A stretch of DNA of 45,606 nucleotides, taken from a virus. The stretch is taken from positions 1 through 45,606 of IMG/VR virus record IMGVR_UViG_3300031586_000007; one strand, written 5' to 3'. The notes beneath the pieces are model-generated. The model searched no databases. It saw nothing but the letters and a program-made list of their open reading frames with translations, and had not been told where the DNA came from. The stretch's first letter is position 1, and every line of letters starts with the position of its first letter. Position numbers and translations under genes: made by a program. Below are positions 1-45,336 of the stretch, piece by piece.

Positions 1-1462
1 TTTCGTCAACAGCAGCACCAGATTTTATTGCACCTAACCCTGTTTTCACCCAATTTTCACCACTGATTGCCTCGTCTAATACCTGGTTAGCACCACTTCC
101 ATATTTCATTCCAAGAACATTTCCAGACTTAAACATACTTGCTACTGTTGCGGCAGATAAAGCGTCCATCATAGCAGCACATCCTGTTGCTCCCCAATGG
201 TCAGTTGCTGCAGCGTTTCCAGAAGTAAAATTTTTCATTGCGGTTGCAGATTTTGCCACATAAAAAGTTCCATAAGTTATTGTCCCGGCTGAACCATAGT
301 CTGTATATCCACCTGAATTTATATCGTCAAGGGAAAATGTTGTCCCATCGATGACAGTAATCTTATATAATTTATAGTTTAATTGTGTCATTCCGACTAC
401 AGCAGTTATCATTATCATATCGCCTGTAGTAAGTGCAGCTGTATTAGCTACCGTGATAACACAAGGGTCAGCTTTGGAAGCTCCTGTTATTGCCATTGTT
501 GCTGCTATACAGGTTGCTCCAATAGAAATTTCATACATTAAACCATTTAGGTCTGCTACTCCGCAATTCTGTCCGTTATGAGTAGTTTTGGCAAAAGGAG
601 TCCCTGAACCAGTCTTACCACAATTGCTATAACCATCAGTTATGTAGGTCACTTCATTATCATCAACATCTTTTAGAACATTATTATTACAACCTTTCGG
701 ATAATTATAAGTAGCGTTATACCAAGCACAATAAGTAGTAGCACTCGAAGCCTGAGCGTGAGCAAGCGCCAACACAGCCAGCGCCGCATAAATAAATCTT
801 GAACAACAAAAGAAGATTGAATTTGCGTTTTCAGCTCCATCCACACCGTCTCGAGCATGGGCAGCCTTTATCATTTCGTAATAGTAATTTCCTGCACAAG
901 CGGTTAAATCTGCTATAGGATTATGAGCTGAGGCAGTTGATATAGGTAGTCCATTTTTGAGAGAACTTCCAATATATCCTGATCCCCAAGCATTTTTAGA
1001 AATCATATATTTATCTACAAAAAATCCGTCTTTTTCTACTCCACCATCTATAAAGACACGATGTAAAGCATACCCATCTGCGTTAGCAAGTGTGGTAGTC
1101 GAATAAGTATCTATTCCTTTTATAGTTATTGTATTAGTAGAAATTTTGTAATAGAATTTAGGTATCCACACCATTACGCTACCATCACGATATTGATAAT
1201 TCCCGTAATTATCGTCAAGAGGGTCTTGATAACCCGCTAATGGTATCATGCCTACAGGTACGTTCCCTGCTGGAGCAATTCCTACTCCAAATCCAGCAGC
1301 ACCAGCAACGCCAATTAAATTTACAGCACTACCACCAATTAAATGATTTATACTCCCATCGCCAATATAAAATTTATGTTTATCAGTAAGCCAGCCACCT
1401 TCACCGCTATCTAACACTGGTAGATTAATTTCAAGCCCTTGTTTAAATATTATTTTACCCAT
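1..1462 (-). CDS. Receptor-binding tail fibre with Mtd-like N-terminus and C-type-lectin-like domain (partial)
   Basis: The reading frame is open from its ATG at 1462 down to base 1, so the C-terminus lies outside the window. Residues 1-42 are an Mtd_N-like virion-attachment module (FKQGLEINLPVLDSGE, then FYIGDG), shared with the next two fibre genes. Residues ~95-290 resemble a C-type-lectin/FGE-sulfatase-like fold: MVWIPKFYYKI, GFFVDKYMISKNAWG, paired Cys, and HNGQNCGVADLNGLMYEI. Such folds make the variable receptor-contact face in many phage fibres (family knowledge). The start overlaps the upstream stop by one base (TAATG), implying translational coupling. It is probably the host-recognition protein at the tail tip. 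A diversity-generating-retroelement target cannot be excluded because the C-terminus is missing, but no reverse transcriptase is visible. Confidence 0.75.
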   Translation of the reverse strand, partial: MGKIIFKQGLEINLPVLDSGEGGWLTDKHKFYIGDGSINHLIGGSAVNLIGVAGAAGFGVGIAPAGNVPVGMIPLAGYQDPLDDNYGNYQYRDGSVMVWIPKFYYKISTNTITIKGIDTYSTTTLANADGYALHRVFIDGGVEKDGFFVDKYMISKNAWGSGYIGSSLKNGLPISTASAHNPIADLTACAGNYYYEMIKAAHARDGVDGAENANSIFFCCSRFIYAALAVLALAHAQASSATTYCAWYNATYNYPKGCNNNVLKDVDDNEVTYITDGYSNCGKTGSGTPFAKTTHNGQNCGVADLNGLMYEISIGATCIAATMAITGASKADPCVITVANTAALTTGDMIMITAVVGMTQLNYKLYKITVIDGTTFSLDDINSGGYTDYGSAGTITYGTFYVAKSATAMKNFTSGNAAATDHWGATGCAAMMDALSAATVASMFKSGNVLGMKYGSGANQVLDEAISGENWVKTGLGAIKSGAAVDE

Positions 1463-2037
1463 TAAAAAGTACCTCCTTTCACAGTTGATTCTCCAATGAT
1501 TAGCCAATTAGCATTATCTGAAACAATAATTACATACGCATACTGATAGTTAATATCTGTATATGTTAAAGCTCCATCTATAGTTTCTGTTCCATCACCG
1601 TCTATAGTGATAAGATTGGCATTATCATCAGTTTTCTTTATAGTAAAAACAATTCCAGAATTGCCTACAGCGGTCGGTAAAAGTATAGTATAGCCACTTG
1701 CAGCAATTACGGTAATAAGCCCCGACTCCGCTATATTTAAAGTTGCAGTCGTTGTTTTTGCTGTAACTTTATGGTTAATGACTGGAGTGGTTATAGTCGG
1801 ACTTGTCCCAAACACCAATAACCCGCTTCCTGTTTCGTCACTTATAACTCCTGCAAGTTCGGCAGAAGTGGTTGCGGCAAAGACAGATAATTTATCTGCC
1901 ACCATAGCGAGTTGATAATTCGCTGCTCCGTCCCCTATAAATACTTTATGAGTATCGGTTGTGAAGGCTGGCTCACCTTGGTTTAATACCGGGATATCCG
2001 CTTCCGCTCCTCTTAAAAATTTTATTATATTGGACAT
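1462..2037 (-). CDS. Tail fibre/appendage protein with Mtd-like N-terminus
   Basis: 191 aa, led by GGAGG six bases before the ATG. Residues 1-45 are the Mtd_N-like module (IKFLRGAEADIPVLNQGEPA then TDTHKVFIGDG). The C-terminal ~95 residues form a beta-rich module (LNIAESGLITVIAASGYTIL, TIDGALTYTDINYQY, ANWLIIG) that is clearly paralogous to the C-terminal half of the 4120-4575 protein. The two modules have therefore been combined differently in adjacent genes. It likely encodes a small virion-bound fibre or fibre adaptor. It sits in the fibre operon between the coiled-coil protein and the receptor-binding protein. Exact function is unknown. Confidence 0.65.
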   Translation of the reverse strand: MSNIIKFLRGAEADIPVLNQGEPAFTTDTHKVFIGDGAANYQLAMVADKLSVFAATTSAELAGVISDETGSGLLVFGTSPTITTPVINHKVTAKTTTATLNIAESGLITVIAASGYTILLPTAVGNSGIVFTIKKTDDNANLITIDGDGTETIDGALTYTDINYQYAYVIIVSDNANWLIIGESTVKGGTF

Positions 2038-2680: not shown

Positions 2681-4093
2681 TTATGCAAAAGCTCCCCCAT
2701 CAATGGTTGAAGCTGAATGTAACAAAGTATTTGCTCCAGCTCCATGTACTCCGGTTGTCGCTACATCATGATCATAAGCCCATTCAGAAGTCGGTGCTTT
2801 GGTTGCCAGGTCTTGTGTTGGTGCTCCTTCTAAATAGGTAGCTGCAAATTCCACAAACTCAACGGCATCTTCTCCTACATTTACTCGAAGTATTTTCCCT
2901 CCATCATCTGTATAATTAGCCGGAAAATCTGTTAATTCTAAAAGAGTATCAATAACACTCCCAGCTTGTGTTACCTCTGTCCATACTGCATTATCTTCTG
3001 TATCATCAAGACAAATATATGCTTTATCAGCTGTAACATCTATCCAATGCGAATTTACACTATATCCTTCAGTAGTATCATTTGTTCCTACTGGTGCTAC
3101 GGTTGCATCAAGTTTATTTTTTGTATTTACTATATTATCTAATCCCAGGGATGCTAGAACTGTTGCTCCGCTTTCATAAGCAAATGCTCCCGCTCCGGTG
3201 GCTACAATAAATTGTCCATCGGATTCAGCTGCTCCTAAAGTGATTAAATCCTCAAGTACGGTTACAACGCTCAAAACATTTCCAGTTTTAGTCAGTCCTG
3301 TACCTGCATCAATATACCCTGCATCAGAAAACTGACTAAAAGTAATATTATCCGTATCTACTACAACAGATTCCGGCTCATTAGTACAGACCCAACCGGT
3401 ATTAGAGTTGACTGTTCCACTTGTAACAAAGACAAAAGATCCCGCCACTTCCGCGGCTGCATCCATATCTTCTGCCCTGGACCATGCTCCCACTTGCGAT
3501 ACATAAATTCCATTTTTCTTAGGATCGGTCTGATCTTTTACCAGAATCCTATCTGCCGAAGATAATACCCCATCGATAGTTTGCTCATCTTCTAATGTTA
3601 TATCCTCTGTTGTCGCTATAACACAGGCTGTATGAACATTTAGCCCCTGGGCCACGCTGTCAACATATGCTTTTGTTGCTCCATCTTGCGCTGCTGCAGG
3701 ATCTGCCATCCCTGTTATTTTTTGAGAATTAATTGCTACATCTCCGGTTGCTGCTGCCAGAGCTGCTGCCACATTTGTCCAGTCCGTTACATCTGCTCCG
3801 GATTCCACACTTATTATAGTCAAAATCTCCGCTGCGGTTAATGCTGCGATATTCCCTCCGGTTTTTCTTCCTAATATTCTTTGTTCTGCTACATCTACCT
3901 TAGCCGGGGTATCATCAGAAACTGCTGCAATAATAGAATGTGCTCCTAATAAAGAATCCATGATCACTCCCAGGGGATTTGAACCATCACTAATATAAAG
4001 TTTTTTTGTATCGGTTGCAAATAAAGGTTCTCCCGCTACTCCGTTAGGAATACTTGCTACTGCTCCTCTCTTAAATTGAATTACATTTGACAT
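2681..4093 (-). CDS. Large modular tail fibre protein
   Basis: 470 aa with the strong SD AAAGGAGATGAATTAA before the ATG. Modules in order: Mtd_N-like attachment domain (~1-45, QFKRGAVASIPNGVAGEPLF, TDTKKLYISDG); an Ala-rich linker; a typical phage-fibre segment (~120-260: ATKAYVDSVAQGLNVHTACV, ADRILVKDQTD, NGIYVSQVGAWSRAEDMDAA); a GYS..S.WID..ADKAYICLD..W.EVT module (~345-375) shared with the 8165-8524 protein; and a C-terminal region ending in GVHGAGANTLLHSASTIDGG. These modules recur in tail fibres of unrelated phages (family knowledge). It is probably a structural side or tip fibre. No depolymerase active site was recognised. Confidence 0.7.
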   Translation of the reverse strand: MSNVIQFKRGAVASIPNGVAGEPLFATDTKKLYISDGSNPLGVIMDSLLGAHSIIAAVSDDTPAKVDVAEQRILGRKTGGNIAALTAAEILTIISVESGADVTDWTNVAAALAAATGDVAINSQKITGMADPAAAQDGATKAYVDSVAQGLNVHTACVIATTEDITLEDEQTIDGVLSSADRILVKDQTDPKKNGIYVSQVGAWSRAEDMDAAAEVAGSFVFVTSGTVNSNTGWVCTNEPESVVVDTDNITFSQFSDAGYIDAGTGLTKTGNVLSVVTVLEDLITLGAAESDGQFIVATGAGAFAYESGATVLASLGLDNIVNTKNKLDATVAPVGTNDTTEGYSVNSHWIDVTADKAYICLDDTEDNAVWTEVTQAGSVIDTLLELTDFPANYTDDGGKILRVNVGEDAVEFVEFAATYLEGAPTQDLATKAPTSEWAYDHDVATTGVHGAGANTLLHSASTIDGGAFA

Positions 4094-26495: not shown

Positions 26496-28424
26496 CTATG
26501 TTATTCTAATTAAATCACTTTCATAAAAATAATCCATTGCCGGAGCTATAAATCCTTCTGGCATAAGATAAGGGATTAGCGTACAACGACAGTTATGTGT
26601 TATAATGTTATTAGAAACATAAAAATTGTCTTTTGTTTGGAGGTTGTACACATGTCCATTAAAATTACTTCTTCTGGTATTAATAATATTATCCATCTTT
26701 ATAGGAACGGATATTCTATTAAGGCCATCGCTAAAAATTATGGTGTTACTCATAAGGTTATTAGAAAGAGACTTGTTGATAACAATATCTTTATTAATTC
26801 CAAATTTCTTAATATTGATTTGCCTTCTGATAAGATTACAAATCTTTACCAAGAAGGTGAATCTGTTAAGTCCCTTGCTTCCAAGTTTAATGTTTCCAGA
26901 AATGTTATTTACCGCTACCTTACTGAATCTAATATTTCGGGTAGGAGCAGGTCTCAAGCTATGTATATTAGAATGGCCAAGACCTCCAAAGCTGAACGGC
27001 AAAGACTTACTGCAAAAGCTCACGATGCTGTCAGAGGTCGCAAGATTGGCATGGATGAGAAAATTAAAATGGCTATTAAAAGAAAAAAGACCGGACAATA
27101 TATTGGAGCTGGAGAAAATAAACTTTTTAAAAAATTGACTAATAGAAATATTAAGGTTATCTCTCAACATAATATCTTTGGTTATAATATCGACCTCTTT
27201 ACTCCCCCTTCCATCTGTATGGAAATCGTCTTTAGTGTTAATAACCCTTTTTACAGGACTCAATTTAGAACTCGATGCATATATCTCCTCAATGCTGGTT
27301 TTAACATAATTATTATTTGGGGTTCTAATAGGAAATTCAACGTTTCCAAATGTGCTAATTACCTTATCCCCATTATTAATATTGCCAAGAGGAATCCAAC
27401 CTTTAGAAGTCAATATTGGGTGATTAGGAGTTCCGGACAATTCGTTGCCAGAGGAGGTTTTGATGGTAATAATTTTACCTTTATAGAACCTTCTGTAAAC
27501 CCTTTTTGTTTCAGTAGCGTCTATTAGGGTATCACCAATAAAACAATTTATCCATTCCGCTATTGGGCCTGTCCTATCACCTGGTCTGGTCAGGCCATTA
27601 CTAAACTTTCCTCCTACTCTGGATATCTGGCCATCCAAATAAACATGATCTGCTATGTCTTCCGGGTCTGTACCTCGTACTCTTTCATCTCCGGCTGTTC
27701 TCCACATATCGTATTGGATTCCAAGCTCGAGCATGGTAGCTTCCGCTCCTCTGTTTTGAGCTCCATTAATTTCTGTTCTGGCCACTCTCTCTAATTCGTA
27801 ACCTTGCATATTATCGAATACGCTATTTAATCCCCCGGCTGCTTTGTCTATTCCATAACCGGCCTCGTAACTCCCTTTTAGATTATCCATGACATTTCCA
27901 GTCATCCTGTCTATTGTCTGCTCCGAAGCTATGAAGGTTTGCTTCCTTAAAAGTTCGGATATTGCTTCACTAAATTCATCAAAGTCCAAACCTGTAGGTA
28001 TTGCAGGAATCGTTATTTTAGGCTTTTTTGGTTTCTTAACCTTTAAACTGCCATTCAAAATAAACTTCATATTATCCTGAATACTCTTGCCAAGCCCTTG
28101 TTTTTTAAGTTCATTAACAGTCCTGGTCATGCCTACTCTGATTGCTTCCTGGGTGTTTTCCATTACGATATTATTATATTCCTCTTTGGCTTCCGCTAAT
28201 GGTGCAAGTAAGGCTTTTAATTCTATGTCCGAGGATGGTATCCGGTCCAGCTTTTTTAATTTCTCCAGGATCTCTTTATTTTTTTGTCTTATTAGTGCTC
28301 TTAACTTCTGATATAGTTTATTTTCTTCCTTTATCAAGTTCCCTGGAATCTTTTTCCATGTCCGTAATTGCTTTTGTATACCTTCTATCTCTATCAGAAG
28401 TTTTATCGCTAGATTTATTGACAT
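26496..28424 (-). CDS. MuF-like head morphogenesis protein interrupted by an intein
   Basis: 642 aa, from the ATG at 28424 (a TTG six bases earlier is a weaker start), overlapping the portal gene by 107 bases. Extein: N-terminal coiled-coil region, then the SPP1 gp7/MuF domain (VARTEINGAQNRGAEATMLE, MWRTAGDERVRGTDPEDIAD, HVYLDGQ, GPIAEWIN) and, after the intein, CRCTLIPYLMPE. Joining the exteins restores the hallmark INCRC motif, so splicing should yield a normal ~324-aa minor head protein that acts during DNA packaging. The intein covers 26592-27545. The junctions are Cys1 at the N-side and His-Asn/Cys+1 at the C-side. Confidence 0.85.
   Translation of the reverse strand: MSINLAIKLLIEIEGIQKQLRTWKKIPGNLIKEENKLYQKLRALIRQKNKEILEKLKKLDRIPSSDIELKALLAPLAEAKEEYNNIVMENTQEAIRVGMTRTVNELKKQGLGKSIQDNMKFILNGSLKVKKPKKPKITIPAIPTGLDFDEFSEAISELLRKQTFIASEQTIDRMTGNVMDNLKGSYEAGYGIDKAAGGLNSVFDNMQGYELERVARTEINGAQNRGAEATMLELGIQYDMWRTAGDERVRGTDPEDIADHVYLDGQISRVGGKFSNGLTRPGDRTGPIAEWINCFIGDTLIDATETKRVYRRFYKGKIITIKTSSGNELSGTPNHPILTSKGWIPLGNINNGDKVISTFGNVEFPIRTPNNNYVKTSIEEIYASSSKLSPVKRVINTKDDFHTDGRGSKEVDIITKDIMLRDNLNISISQFFKKFIFSSSNILSGLFSFNSHFNFLIHANLATSDSIVSFCSKSLPFSFGGLGHSNIHSLRPAPTRNIRFSKVAVNNISGNIKLGSKGLNRFTFLVKICNLIRRQINIKKFGINKDIVINKSLSNNLMSNTIIFSDGLNRISVPIKMDNIINTRRSNFNGHVYNLQTKDNFYVSNNIITHNCRCTLIPYLMPEGFIAPAMDYFYESDLIRIT
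26598..26606 (+). promoter_or_regulatory. Candidate extended -10 promoter of the antisense endonuclease
   Basis: TGTTATAAT is a perfect extended -10 (TGn-TATAAT), about 45 bases upstream of the antisense ATG. It is the exact complement of the intein codons for Ile314, Ile315 and Thr316 in the conserved IITHN block. No good -35 lies 17 bases upstream. The match could partly reflect the AT-rich codons needed for that protein motif. Confidence 0.4.
26639..26643 (+). promoter_or_regulatory. Shine-Dalgarno site of the antisense gene
   Basis: GGAGG lies eight bases before the ATG at 26652, the same spacing used by the phage's minus-strand genes. It is the complement of CCTCC inside the codons Asn-Leu-Gln of intein block F. 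It decides the start of the antisense gene at 26652 rather than the in-frame ATG at 26595. Confidence 0.65.
26652..27527 (+). CDS. Antisense Vsr/EDxHD-like homing endonuclease encoded within the intein
   Basis: 291 aa on the plus strand, opposite the intein and in exact codon register with it. Residues ~9-45 (YSIKAIAKNYGVTHKVIRKR) and ~58-95 (ESVKSLASKFNVSRNVIYRY) are two helix-turn-helix units. Residues ~97-145 (SRSQAMYIRMAKTSKAERQR, AHDAVRGRKI) are a linker typical of phage Vsr-like enzymes. Residues ~152-240 resemble the EDxHD/Vsr nuclease core: GENKLFKKL (Glu), NIDLF (Asp), CMEIVFS (Glu), RTRCIYLLNAGFNIIIIWG. Residues ~255-278 (QYWVIRSSGQFVARGG) look like a family C-terminal motif. The usual His after MEI is not seen. 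Stop TAG is opposite the intein's Leu7 CTA codon. Probably drives intein homing. Confidence 0.8.
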   Translation: MSIKITSSGINNIIHLYRNGYSIKAIAKNYGVTHKVIRKRLVDNNIFINSKFLNIDLPSDKITNLYQEGESVKSLASKFNVSRNVIYRYLTESNISGRSRSQAMYIRMAKTSKAERQRLTAKAHDAVRGRKIGMDEKIKMAIKRKKTGQYIGAGENKLFKKLTNRNIKVISQHNIFGYNIDLFTPPSICMEIVFSVNNPFYRTQFRTRCIYLLNAGFNIIIIWGSNRKFNVSKCANYLIPIINIAKRNPTFRSQYWVIRSSGQFVARGGFDGNNFTFIEPSVNPFCFSSVY

Positions 28425-29916
28425 AATCAATTAACCCCTCTATTAATTTACTTTTTAGACCTTGTAATACATTAGTTATTTCGCTTTCCGGTATAAAGTT
28501 TCCGGCATCGATTGCCTGACCACTTATATAATGTAAGTCCATCGCTGGGTTGTCTTCACATTTCTCTACTCCGAAATGATCCCCTAAATATTCTATGGCT
28601 TCGTTTGGTGTCATAACTGCACAACCAATTAATTTTACTACCCTATCTATCTCTTTATCAATATCTTCCAGGTCAATGGAATTAAGCTCCCATTTCCAAT
28701 CGGTTATTCCTAAAGTCGGTAGGATCTCATGGTTCATGATATGGTTATAAACTTCCTGTCTTGGTTTTATTACGCTGGTGTAATATATAACGGTTGATTC
28801 TGCTCCCAGGTTGCCTGCTAACGTTCCGGTCTCATATATTCCCATTCTGTATGGTGGTATAGCATGTGCGGTTATAACTTCGTTTCGGTTGTCTACTCTG
28901 TAAAGTCTGAATGAGGCTTCTTTTATGTCGGTTGAAAGTGGCTCCACTTTTACCTCTATTTCTCCTCCCATTGATGATGCTGTTTTTGGTATAGTTAATA
29001 TCATAACTGATTGCGGATTCTTTATAACCTCTTTAAATTTATCCTCTATATTTTTGGTGAGTTCTGTTTTACCTGTTTCAGGGTCGATTTCTCCAGGGTC
29101 AAAGTCTCCACATATTGAAACCATATAAGCCGGTACTCCGTAATTATTAAAGAAGGCTATGTTATAATCCCTTCTTGATATATCTCCGGTTATTGCTCCA
29201 ATCGCTGGTGTGATATCCGGGATTCCGTAGAAGCAGCTTCTAGGAGTATAATTAACATTCCATATTATTTCATTCCCTCTGGTATTTCTATCCAGAGATT
29301 TCCCTTCTTCTTCTTTGCCATTATTCATTCTAATATCTTTTTTATAATCAAATAAACGAAACCACTTTGAAGAATTATCCCTATTCTGGCAGAATTTATT
29401 TCCCTCTTTGTGTATCCTTACAGTGTGTGCCGGAATATGTCTCATTTGATTAACTGGCCCATCAAAGGCATTCTCTTCTCTGGCTATTTCCATTGAAAAA
29501 TAACCTACAAGTTCTTTATCAAGTTGTGTCTTTTTTATGGTCTCCTCCAGTCCTTCTTCCTGGCCTTTGATAAATTCCTCTATCGCTTCTTTCTGCTCAT
29601 CGCTTGGTTTATCTACTAAAGGCACCAGCTTCCAACCGTTCCCGGCCACGTCCTCTGATTTTGTTCTACATGCCCTCATATGATAAGTATTGATTTCTAA
29701 TAATTTCGCCATTGTCAAAGGTGCGTATAATGGCTTTACTAATGATCCTTCTGTATAATCTGCATCTGCGAATACATCTTTTCCTAATTGCTTACTTTCC
29801 GCTGTCTGGTATCCTTCCAATACATCTGTTCTTATTACCTTTGCTTTATTGGTTACTACGCAATAAGGCACCCATTTGTTAGGGATTTTTTCTATTTTCT
29901 TTTTAGTCTTTGTCAT
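28318..29916 (-). CDS. Portal protein (PBSX/HK97-like)
   Basis: 532 aa. Portal-family features include NTYHMRACRTKSEDVAGNGW, the segment NEIIWNVNYTPRSCFYGIPD, then RRDYNIAFFNNYGVPAYMVS, VITAHAIPPYRMGIYETGTL and IKPRQEVYNHIMNHEILPTL. It forms the dodecameric ring at the packaging vertex. Its last 107 bases overlap the start of the MuF-like gene. It follows the DNA methyltransferase gene by about 20 bp. Confidence 0.85.
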   Translation of the reverse strand: MTKTKKKIEKIPNKWVPYCVVTNKAKVIRTDVLEGYQTAESKQLGKDVFADADYTEGSLVKPLYAPLTMAKLLEINTYHMRACRTKSEDVAGNGWKLVPLVDKPSDEQKEAIEEFIKGQEEGLEETIKKTQLDKELVGYFSMEIAREENAFDGPVNQMRHIPAHTVRIHKEGNKFCQNRDNSSKWFRLFDYKKDIRMNNGKEEEGKSLDRNTRGNEIIWNVNYTPRSCFYGIPDITPAIGAITGDISRRDYNIAFFNNYGVPAYMVSICGDFDPGEIDPETGKTELTKNIEDKFKEVIKNPQSVMILTIPKTASSMGGEIEVKVEPLSTDIKEASFRLYRVDNRNEVITAHAIPPYRMGIYETGTLAGNLGAESTVIYYTSVIKPRQEVYNHIMNHEILPTLGITDWKWELNSIDLEDIDKEIDRVVKLIGCAVMTPNEAIEYLGDHFGVEKCEDNPAMDLHYISGQAIDAGNFIPESEITNVLQGLKSKLIEGLIDYVNKSSDKTSDRDRRYTKAITDMEKDSRELDKGRK

Positions 29917-29935: not shown

Positions 29936-30661
29936 TTAGAATAATGTTTCCGGGATCTTGTTTATTCTCTTTTCTGCCATATCAATATATTCCTGCTTTA
30001 ACTCTATCCCTAAATATTTTCTTTTTAATTCCTTGCAAGCCGCTGCGGTTGTCCCTATCCCCATATATGGGTCTAAAACAATATCGTTCTCATCTGTTGT
30101 AGAAAGGATACAATTCTTTGGCAATTCTATCGGGAAGGGTGCAGGGTGGTCTTTGTTAGCCCTAACGGGTAAATCCCATATATCTTTAGTGTAATATAAG
30201 TTGTTCCTTTTAAACTTTGGCTGTATATTTGTTTTAGTTATCCAGAATATATATTCTGTAATAGGCAAAAATCTTATCGGTGCTAATTGTGGAGTAGATT
30301 TTCTATTCCATATTATTATCTGCCTTAAATTGAATTGGAATATATATGTAGGGAATATGGCTTTATGATTTGATACTTGTAATTTATGATTATAGAATAT
30401 ACTCCCATCTTTTTTAATAATCCTAACTAATTCTGTTAATACTTCTGTCTGTTGATTTATATATTCTTCTGGTTTTAAATTATCTTTAAAATCACCATAT
30501 TCTATATTTCTTTGTTGCCAACTATCTGATTTTGAAGGCGTATGCTTACCATAAAACCCCTTATTATAAGGTGGAGAAGTCACCACTAAATTAACTGACT
30601 CATCTGGTAAGGTCTTTAATATGGCTAAACTATCACCTTGAATTATTTGGTTATATTCCAT
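29936..30661 (-). CDS. DNA methyltransferase, SPPY (N4/N6) type
   Basis: 241 aa from the ATG at 30661 with GAGGGAAGGA upstream; a longer frame from 30700 would overlap the preceding gene. Motif IV is TSPPYNKGFYG near the N-terminus, and the AdoMet-binding motif IVLDPYMGIGTTAAACKELK is near the C-terminus, so this is a circularly ordered (beta-class) amino-methyltransferase. The SPPY motif suggests N4-cytosine methylation, but N6-adenine is possible. No cognate restriction enzyme is adjacent. It likely protects phage DNA from host restriction. It sits between the transglutaminase-like and portal genes. Confidence 0.85.
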   Translation of the reverse strand: MEYNQIIQGDSLAILKTLPDESVNLVVTSPPYNKGFYGKHTPSKSDSWQQRNIEYGDFKDNLKPEEYINQQTEVLTELVRIIKKDGSIFYNHKLQVSNHKAIFPTYIFQFNLRQIIIWNRKSTPQLAPIRFLPITEYIFWITKTNIQPKFKRNNLYYTKDIWDLPVRANKDHPAPFPIELPKNCILSTTDENDIVLDPYMGIGTTAAACKELKRKYLGIELKQEYIDMAEKRINKIPETLF

Positions 30662-30678
30662 TTCATTCCTTCCCTCTC

Positions 30679-31209
30679 TTATTTTATATATCCTATCCAT
30701 GCTCTCTTCTTATCTACGATCTTTCCCTCGGTGTTTCTTCTCTCGTAATACTTCAGTCCTTCCGGATAATGCTTATAACCATAAAGCATGATATTGTTAG
30801 TCATTGGATTGTATGCTTCCCGGTAGGTTTTATTGGTGAATTCATAATAATTCATTTGCATTGAATTTTCAAATATACATACCGCATGCTCGCTGTAGGT
30901 TCTCTTCCCGGCTTTCATGAAGTATCCTCCGTAAATAACAAACCAGGGATTTTCTATCCCCAACCATCGATGAAGTATTTCTTGAATCATAATTGCCATG
31001 TCTTCACAGTCGTAGGTTTTTAGGTGGTAGGTTTTATATGCTGGCTGCCAATTGTCTTTAATATCGCTTACGTATTTAAAAGGCTTTATAAATTCTATTA
31101 AGTCTCCTATGTTTTTAATCCCTGCTGTCGCTTTAATATATTCCTGTTCTTGTTTTTGCTCCTCTTCCGTTTTTACCTTTTTCGGCCATTTATCTTTAAA
31201 AAAACACAT
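30679..31209 (-). CDS. Transglutaminase-like (papain-fold) protein
   Basis: 176 aa. A candidate catalytic Cys lies in TYDCEDMAIMIQEIL, followed by SEHAVCIFEN (His) and MNYYEFTNK, an order like the Cys-His-Asp/Glu of transglutaminase-like proteins. Residues ~30-60 are helical (IKNIGDLIEFIKPFKYVSDI). It may be a virion or packaging-linked peptidase, or an inactive fold member; the substrate is unknown. It abuts the 70-aa gene upstream. Confidence 0.5.
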   Translation of the reverse strand: MCFFKDKWPKKVKTEEEQKQEQEYIKATAGIKNIGDLIEFIKPFKYVSDIKDNWQPAYKTYHLKTYDCEDMAIMIQEILHRWLGIENPWFVIYGGYFMKAGKRTYSEHAVCIFENSMQMNYYEFTNKTYREAYNPMTNNIMLYGYKHYPEGLKYYERRNTEGKIVDKKRAWIGYIK

Positions 31210-43729: not shown

Positions 43730-45040
43730 TTAATCTCTCGGATATCCCTCTTGTTTGTGCTCCAATATTTCCTCTTTCACTTTCCCATCCTCAATAAGGA
43801 ATCCAAATTCCCCGGTGTCTACTGATTCAGCCCATACCTGGTATCCTTCCTTATCAGACATTTTCTTAACGGCCTCTTTGCTTTCGCTATCCAGGAGAGA
43901 ATAATCTGATATAAATATTACTCTCAATTTTGGATTCAAGGCCATGGCAATTCCTATCGCTACCTTTAGCTGTTCTGAATATGCTATCTGGGAGAATGGT
44001 ATACCTTCATAAGCTATCCCATCTTCTGTCAGGCTTAATTTCTGGTCCGGGATCTTGCTCCAGGATGCCAGCAATGCTGCTCCCATCTCAAGCACATTTT
44101 TATCTATCTCTTCGGTAAACTTATCATAGACTTCCTGTGATTCTTTCTGTTTCTGGTCCGCTGCTCTGTTTCTCTCCCTGGCTTTAATCTGGTCGTTAAT
44201 AGTATAAGCATTATTTATCTCTGTTTTTATACTTTCGGTATCGGTTGCTTTATTGCTTAATAACCATAATTCGCTTGTCTTAAGAGCTTCTTCTCTTTTT
44301 TTAATATCTTCCTCTAATCGCTTTATTTCTTCTTTTGCTTCATCTATAAATCTTTTTGAATCCTTTGCTTTTCCCTCTTCAATTGTAATCTGATTATTAA
44401 TGGTTATTGCCTGGTCGTATTTGTCAGATAATTTTGAAGTATCTATTAACTGCTCTGGCAGATCCGGGATGGTTATCTCTTCTCTGGCTCCGGATAATAA
44501 TTTCACTTCCTGGCCTTGTTTCCTTCTCTTTTCTCTTAAATCATTTATCTTATTCTCCATGCTGGTGTAGTCGTACCCGGTTATTTTAATGAGTAATTCC
44601 TTCTGTTCTTTCCCGCTCATCCTTAAGAATTCCCCAGGGTCAAAACTTAAGTATCCGATAAACTCATCCAGCAATTTTTGTGGTGGTAAAGGTGGTACAA
44701 AACCCTCCGCATTGGTAACCTTTAGATATGTATTATCGTTTGAGGTCCACTTCCTGTTCACGATAAATAATGGTTTTGGCTTTACCCCTTGCTTTATCTG
44801 CTCCTCCGTTAAATCCTCACATAATGTTAAAGTAACTTCGGCAAACTTTTCTCCTTTCCGTATCGGCATTGGCGTACCTTTTGACCCTGCTTTCCAACAT
44901 AAGGTATACCATATGCTGTCCATGGCTGACGTTTTTCCTGCTCCGTTCTTCCCGGAGATAACTACTGTATTACTCTTGGGGGTAATATCTATCGCTACGA
45001 TTCCTTTGAAGTTCTGTGATTTTAAATTAATAATTTTCAT
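43730..45040 (-). CDS. SMC/RecF-like ATPase
   Basis: 436 aa. The N-terminus has the AAA_23/RecF pattern: IINLKSQNFKGIVAIDI, Walker A VVISGKNGAGKTSAMDSIWY. A central coiled coil (~175-330) follows (KRFIDEAKEEIKRLEEDIKK). The C-terminus has an ABC-signature-like AYSEQLKVAIGIAMALNPKL then Walker B RVIFISDYSLLDSES. It is probably a DNA-end or repair ATPase working with the downstream YqaJ/RecT pair, like phage SbcC/RecF-type proteins. No nuclease partner was identified. Confidence 0.8.
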   Translation of the reverse strand: MKIINLKSQNFKGIVAIDITPKSNTVVISGKNGAGKTSAMDSIWYTLCWKAGSKGTPMPIRKGEKFAEVTLTLCEDLTEEQIKQGVKPKPLFIVNRKWTSNDNTYLKVTNAEGFVPPLPPQKLLDEFIGYLSFDPGEFLRMSGKEQKELLIKITGYDYTSMENKINDLREKRRKQGQEVKLLSGAREEITIPDLPEQLIDTSKLSDKYDQAITINNQITIEEGKAKDSKRFIDEAKEEIKRLEEDIKKREEALKTSELWLLSNKATDTESIKTEINNAYTINDQIKARERNRAADQKQKESQEVYDKFTEEIDKNVLEMGAALLASWSKIPDQKLSLTEDGIAYEGIPFSQIAYSEQLKVAIGIAMALNPKLRVIFISDYSLLDSESKEAVKKMSDKEGYQVWAESVDTGEFGFLIEDGKVKEEILEHKQEGYPRD

Positions 45041-45075
45041 TCTATTTACTCCTTTATTTTATATTTTGTTTTATC

Positions 45076-45336
45076 CTAATACGGATAATCATCCGGGTCC
45101 ATGTTCTTCTCTGGATTCCGGTCCAGATATATTTCAAGTTTCTGCTCCCATGATAATCCGTTATACATTTCATCTATATCATCTATGCCGATTCTGTCCG
45201 GGTAGTAATCTTCCAGGATCTCTTCTTTGTTATCGCATTCCAGCCAATCCTTTTCTACCTCGTCCTGTAGTTTTACCTGGTCTTCTTTTTCCTGATTAAA
45301 TTCCGGTACATCGTATCCTTCCTTCCCTATTCTCAT
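45076..45336 (-). CDS. Acidic hypothetical protein (86 aa)
   Basis: GGAGG precedes the ATG. Very acidic (DEVEKDWLECDNKEEILEDY, IDDIDEMYNGLSWEQKLEIY), ending DPDDYPY. Acidic mini-proteins of this kind can mimic DNA, but no specific family was recognised. It precedes the SMC-like gene. Confidence 0.5.
   Translation of the reverse strand: MRIGKEGYDVPEFNQEKEDQVKLQDEVEKDWLECDNKEEILEDYYPDRIGIDDIDEMYNGLSWEQKLEIYLDRNPEKNMDPDDYPY

Follow-up and report, generated by a model that had tools for sequence, protein, structure and literature searches.

Our analysis indicates that a phage head gene is interrupted by a homing intein whose mobility enzyme is very probably encoded by the same stretch of DNA read from the other strand, a reading to which we assign a probability of roughly 0.88. 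The computed evidence consists of two open frames in a fixed register, selection on both of them, translation signals on the antisense strand, a nuclease fold, occupied and empty alleles of the insertion site, and horizontal spread. The preliminary description of this DNA had proposed the same arrangement, in which one segment specifies both the splicing element and its mobility enzyme. Three contrary outcomes were looked for (an antisense protein matching no nuclease fold, an antisense frame conserved only as far as the intein frame forces it to be, and intein homologs lacking the antisense frame); none was obtained, and the proposal is supported.

The DNA analyzed, here called the window, spans the 45,606 bases of a virus record. 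The host gene (26496 to 28430, minus strand) encodes a MuF-type minor head protein, as judged from matches to PHROG 15127 (1.5e-61) and PHROG 2468 (2.3e-19) and a weak match to Pfam Phage_Mu_F; a further minus-strand match to the PHROG 15127 head protein stood at 4.9e-44. A portal gene (28318 to 29916, PF04860) lies directly upstream, and an N6/N4 DNA methylase gene of the late cluster (29936 to 30700, minus strand, PF01555, 2.3e-44) adjoins the portal gene. Elsewhere, near the contig end, a 236-amino-acid ORF (44589 to 45299, plus strand) without a Pfam match overlaps an AAA/SMC-like gene (43730 to 45040, minus strand).

The intein (26592 to 27545, minus strand) splits the head protein between ...EWIN and CRCTLIPY, and its 318 codons run from Cys1 to the terminal HN, with Cys at +1, without a stop inside the ORF at 26496 to 28430. 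All splice motifs are present in the host frame: Cys1, the TxxH of block B (TPNHPILT, 27408 to 27431), block F (GHVYNLQT, 26634 to 26657), and the terminal His-Asn (26592 to 26597) followed by Cys +1. The intein-bearing ORF matched Pfam Intein_splicing (E = 1.8e-11), and TIGR01445 (intein_Nterm) scored above its cut-off on the minus strand. AlphaFold predicted a confident Hint domain from residues 1 to 70 and 280 to 318, mostly with a pLDDT of 81 to 97, and the best Foldseek matches of this model were inteins (Mtu RecA and Pho RadA, probability 1.00). Motifs, Pfam, TIGR01445, PHROG, and the structure searches thus agree with the earlier claim of a complete 318-residue Hint intein in a MuF head protein. 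Residues 125 to 253 (26787 to 27173), which are the complement of part of the antisense gene, form a predicted disordered linker with a pLDDT below 50, and Pfam and TIGR profiles detected no in-frame endonuclease domain in the middle of the intein. Among 154 distinct inteins with assigned ends, 151 end in Asn|Cys and 3 in Asn|Ser, a count to be read with the fact that the end assignment itself searched for Asn|Cys/Ser-type ends. Outside the classical splicing blocks, the family columns F108, H109, G110, D111, and G112 (FHGDG; FHTDG at 27210 to 27224 in the window) are nearly invariant. This stretch is the complement of the antisense stretch ending in an invariant glutamate, and FHGDG may have a role of its own in the intein because both frames look constrained there.

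The antisense gene (26652 to 27527, plus strand) extends from an ATG to a stop codon over 292 codons, stop included, and lies wholly inside the intein in exact complementary codon register. Its 291-amino-acid product and its register, both described previously, are directly seen in the sequence, and the frame is open in relatives. A longer in-frame start at 26595 (310 amino acids) is also present; the start at 26652 is preferred because it is kept across phages and preceded by a Shine-Dalgarno sequence. The predicted protein contains a first helix-turn-helix (HTH) unit at residues 7 to 43 (26670 to 26780; profile match and AlphaFold model), a second, resolvase-type unit at residues 59 to 92 (26826 to 26927; PF02796, 1.1e-13, and AlphaFold model), and a putative nuclease core of the PD-(D/E)XK/EDxHD type at residues 153 to 247 (27108 to 27392; profile and fold) with E155, D181, and E191.

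Searched alone, the window's antisense protein gave only the two HTH units (PF02796) and no Pfam nuclease match. A profile of 32 relatives matched the Vsr-like protein 3hrl (4.2e-7) and I-Bth0305I (3r3p, 1.6e-6) and, weakly, Vsr itself (0.065); 26 of the 32 members matched the Pfam restriction-endonuclease family MTES_1575. With the alignment of these relatives, AlphaFold gave a mean pLDDT of 88.3 and a PD-(D/E)XK order of helices and strands after the HTH part. Foldseek ranked I-Bth0305I (3r3p) first with a probability of 1.00 and a modest E value of 3.1e-3, in agreement with the profile search, and placed 3hrl at a target TM score of 0.76. Profiles and models therefore bear out the earlier suggestion of two HTH units joined to a Vsr/EDxHD-like nuclease core, and the closest relatives of the predicted nuclease domain include I-Bth0305I, a homing endonuclease of the EDxHD type. 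The family consensus reads E ... YNxDxA ... VAVEIxGGxWH, in which D181 and E191 are invariant and E155 is nearly so among the 32 members. The E and D of the EDxHD motif are kept and the WH is present in the consensus, but the window carries VFSVNNPF in place of GGxWH, and the Klebsiella/Edwardsiella copies likewise lack it. The activity of the window's own enzyme is uncertain because this part of the motif is lost.

Translation signals for the antisense gene are buried opposite intein block F. The Shine-Dalgarno sequence GGAGGT (26639 to 26644, plus strand) lies within intein-coding DNA 7 bp upstream of the ATG and opposite the N-L-Q of block F, and the block F His codon (26652 to 26654) is the complement of the start codon; similar Shine-Dalgarno sequences occur in 110 of 154 loci. 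In 75% of the 154 distinct inteins, the opposite strand has a start codon exactly 60 bp from the intein end, while nearly all neighboring codons serve as possible starts in 0 to 10% and the codon at +45 does so in 29%. At +60, ATG was chosen over GTG in 80 of 94 cases, against 38.3 (standard deviation, 4.3) expected from the His codon use of the same genes, and the block F Leu codon that faces the Shine-Dalgarno core was CTC or CTT in 116 of 129 cases, against 47.6 expected. On these counts, the codon choices at the putative start and Shine-Dalgarno sequence are selected. The element thus contains three double-coded pairs of motifs: block F with the Shine-Dalgarno sequence and start, FHGDG with VAVE, and TPNHPIL with the C-terminal QYWVIR hairpin of the endonuclease. 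A scan for plus-strand promoters found sites no more often than in shuffled sequences, and for this reason we claim no promoter.

The arrangement is widespread. A tblastn search with the antisense protein matched 124 named phage records at an E value of 1e-3 and 134 at an E value of 1, mostly under genes for MuF or head proteins. In the first seven records, the endonuclease frame was antisense to an intein-bearing head gene in the same register; the alignment of these seven members was too diverged for a pattern search. The endonuclease itself is unannotated in every phage record fetched. Only one match, in Salmonella phage vB_StyS-sam, coincides with an annotated gene on the endonuclease strand (2694 to 3095, plus strand), and this gene is a short ORF in another frame. 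Two different alignments recovered 168 and 422 relatives from IMG/VR, and a profile scan with an improved alignment recovered 24 from GTDB genomes, where an earlier contig scan with a poorer alignment had found none. Judged by their titles, the GTDB records include Actinomycetota, Pseudomonadota, Chloroflexota, Acidobacteriota, Bacteroidota, Cyanobacteria, candidate phyla, and others. Among plasmids there were three matches, and the one examined, from Halosimplex, had no profile match.

Both intein ends lie opposite the endonuclease, in one ORF and at register 0, in 200 of 205 endonuclease loci, a set that includes duplicates and represents the 154 distinct inteins. Two of the five exceptions are at a contig end (L117 and L164), and in one (L203) the intein is intact but went undetected by the profile. 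The remaining two (L073 and L140) are one contig, on which an intact endonuclease frame (2911 to 3789, plus strand) stands beside an uninterrupted MuF gene (HPRCRCSL); the opposite frame has no Hint motifs and a repeated CRCSLGL end. There, to judge from the sequence, the endonuclease was apparently kept and the intein lost. Another reduced relative occurs in Rhodococcus phage REQ3 (655 to 2433, plus strand), where the shortened intein seems to begin with Ala rather than Cys (HPN|AVLEG); opposite it, the endonuclease retains YNLDF and VAVEV but no longer has an HTH part.

Because the endonuclease had been the bait in these searches, we added a search driven by the intein. In each of the 80 loci kept from it, the antisense endonuclease is present at register 0 and its frame is not broken by any internal stop; the seeming stops in 21 frames all lie at the natural C terminus or upstream of the start. 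This search therefore yielded no homolog with the intein but without the antisense ORF. We do not count the fixed register as independent evidence from each locus, since common descent explains its being shared.

Insertion is usually at the MuF motif HPxC/C(R,D,K)C, and both occupied and empty sites are found. Among 407 records of Jerseyvirus and relatives with matching DNA in the MuF region, 58 cover at least 80% of the intein-bearing query, and many others match in two pieces with the intein absent. Precise absence of the intein from related host genes was seen in Jerseyvirus, in which MA12 has an empty site (HPN|CRSTT) exactly where VSe101 has the intein. In some pairs the endonucleases are up to 78% identical and the exteins 32%. 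The intein-less alleles and this incongruence between endonuclease and extein speak for homing at the level of sequence comparison.

The element is also found at other sites. In Virus Rctr197k (KX853510.1; 619 to 1968, minus strand, with the endonuclease at 841 to 1581, plus strand), the same dual-coded element occupies a dCMP deaminase gene (PF00383, 5.1e-11), which the record labels a head morphogenesis protein. The insertion point there is the zinc-binding motif (PCVAC|intein|CAKRL). A related dual-coded intein in Escherichia phage BEU35 (Kagunavirus) lies at a second site in MuF, some 22 residues upstream of the one normally used, and in Mycobacterium phage Sejanus the element is likewise at another position in MuF. 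Escherichia phage vB-Eco-KMB36 (Kagunavirus), whose annotation reads "minor head protein with inserted intein", likewise gives a match to the profile of the antisense endonuclease.

An antisense ORF might be a by-product of unusual codon use in the intein, with its conservation imposed by the intein frame. In exact complementary register, one frame strongly constrains the other, and such frames are often open by chance in GC-rich genomes. The window, however, is AT-rich (GC of about 0.33), and none of the 20 Leu and 36 Ser codons in its overlap gives an antisense stop, which has a probability of about 1.3e-13 under the phage's own codon use (0.62 for TTA or CTA given Leu and 0.25 for TCA given Ser). 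In 40 loci, the Leu and Ser codons that are complements of stops numbered 0 of 1,960 in the overlap and 212 of 1,355 in the exteins. In this register, codon position 3 of the endonuclease pairs with position 1 of the intein. Across endonuclease residues 30 to 232 in 40 distinct loci, the endonuclease frame is the better conserved, its third position being the most variable; variation among codon positions is nearly level in the block of residues 204 to 232, and at the ends, which face the splicing blocks, constraint shifts to the intein frame. These results were unchanged whether the endonuclease or the intein frame was aligned. With substitutions classed by their effect on each of the two frames, omega was 0.24 for the endonuclease and 0.37 for the intein in five close pairs, and 0.27 to 0.39 and 0.46 to 0.67, respectively, in 14 pairs at kappa 1 to 4, two of these pairs being near-duplicates. 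The control, the antisense of the flanking exteins, gave 1.02 in the first set and 0.74 in the 14 pairs, and MuF itself gave 0.18 to 0.19. Both frames are, by these sequence measures, under purifying selection, and the plus frame is constrained beyond what the intein forces, its omega of about 0.3 standing against 0.7 to 1.0 in the control. The endonuclease frame is also predicted to be well folded (pLDDT 88) where the intein frame is predicted to be disordered, and the fold matches a nuclease. Stop depletion, codon positions, and omega with its extein controls rule out a chance ORF, and the same tests rule out conservation forced solely by the intein. The selected codon choices at the start and Shine-Dalgarno sequence also argue against a by-product, and that explanation, refuted unless all of these tests are artefacts of a single alignment bias, retains almost no credence.

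A real antisense gene could still serve something other than mobility, for example, as a DNA-binding regulator or as a nuclease for phage exclusion or late-gene control. The two HTH units resemble those of resolvase and of Cbp1-type DNA binders, and the catalytic histidine is changed in some clades, the window included. A nuclease domain would be superfluous in a regulator, however, and the best fold match is a homing endonuclease, with the acidic residues E155, D181, and E191 retained in nearly all 32 members. The gene also lies within a splicing element that is present in some alleles, absent from others, and has moved horizontally, and we regard a role unconnected with mobility as improbable. 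It is somewhat less far-fetched, but still unlikely, that the element was once mobile and that homing is now dead in many phages, the window's included, with the frame kept for another need or the decay being recent. The missing GGxWH of the window and of the Klebsiella/Edwardsiella clade is in keeping with this, as are REQ3, with neither the HTH part nor the intein's Cys1, and the contig of L140, which retains the endonuclease without an intact intein. Against it, there were 0 broken endonuclease frames in the 80 intein-driven loci, and omega for the endonuclease was low in every pair tested singly.

If the element is a homing intein with its enzyme in antisense, its cycle can be sketched from what is known of inteins and homing endonucleases; splicing, cleavage, antisense expression, and homing are all taken from that analogy. 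Read as part of the head gene, the Hint domain would excise itself and restore the head protein, the long middle of the intein being a mere flexible linker. Read from the other strand, the Shine-Dalgarno sequence and start buried opposite block F would yield a free-standing nuclease with two HTH units, similar to I-Bth0305I and Vsr. This enzyme would cut intein-less head genes at the conserved site coding for HPxC/CRC, and repair would copy the whole dual-coded element into the cut.

Should this be correct, double coding would be an answer to the packing problem that homing elements face: recombination could not part the splicing element from the enzyme spreading it, and the nuclease would be a protein in its own right with translation signals of its own. 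The family would also be a natural, widely replicated system for following how a pair of unrelated folded proteins evolve when one DNA segment encodes both, one on each strand in a shared register. It accounts for the open, unannotated strand of many public phage MuF genes, among them those of Jerseyvirus and of Gordonia, Pseudomonas, Klebsiella, and Vibrio phages. It raises the question of how an antisense gene within a late structural gene is expressed.

A search of the open-access literature, preprints excluded, returned no account of an intein with its endonuclease in antisense, and we therefore call this a homing intein with an architecture lacking precedent found in that literature. It probably represents a large, undescribed class of dual-strand mobile element, with a splicing module and a homing endonuclease opposite each other in exact register, regulatory or catalytic parts of one lying hidden across from motifs of the other, present in phages of many bacterial phyla and in several host genes. 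Dassa et al. reportedly described, in 2009, fractured loci in which split inteins occur with free-standing genes of the EDxHD type. Such loci likewise pair an intein with a nuclease of this type encoded apart from it, but there the nuclease lies between the two split halves, whereas here an unbroken intein shares its DNA with the nuclease gene.

Canonical homing inteins of the PI-SceI type, with in-frame LAGLIDADG or HNH domains, also have a Hint domain, a site in a conserved host motif, and the endonuclease inside the element. According to a review (PMC3943268), the endonuclease of an intein is made fused to it in translation; here the intein frame has no endonuclease domain, and the endonuclease is a separate protein from the opposite strand that shares most of the intein-coding DNA. 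EDxHD enzymes are one family of phage homing endonucleases, exemplified by I-Bth0305I (PMC3943268), in which, as here, a Vsr-like nuclease domain is tethered to DNA-binding modules. That enzyme is of the intron type, whereas the present gene is antisense inside an intein; here the VAVE glutamate is invariant, the WH is absent in some clades, and the final D of the motif was not located.

In the phage element ShiLan (PMC11855218), an insertion is open in the host frame and hides an endonuclease in another frame, which is similar to the situation here. The two ShiLan frames are on the same strand, however, and the enzyme is of the HNH rather than the EDxHD type, in an insertion that is not an intein and in which no splicing domain was found. 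The nuclear group I introns of Didymium (PMC9548176) are, like the present element, self-splicing and carry an antisense homing endonuclease gene. That gene is inserted in the peripheral RNA segment P9.2 without dual coding of protein, whereas here both strands are protein coding in one codon register.
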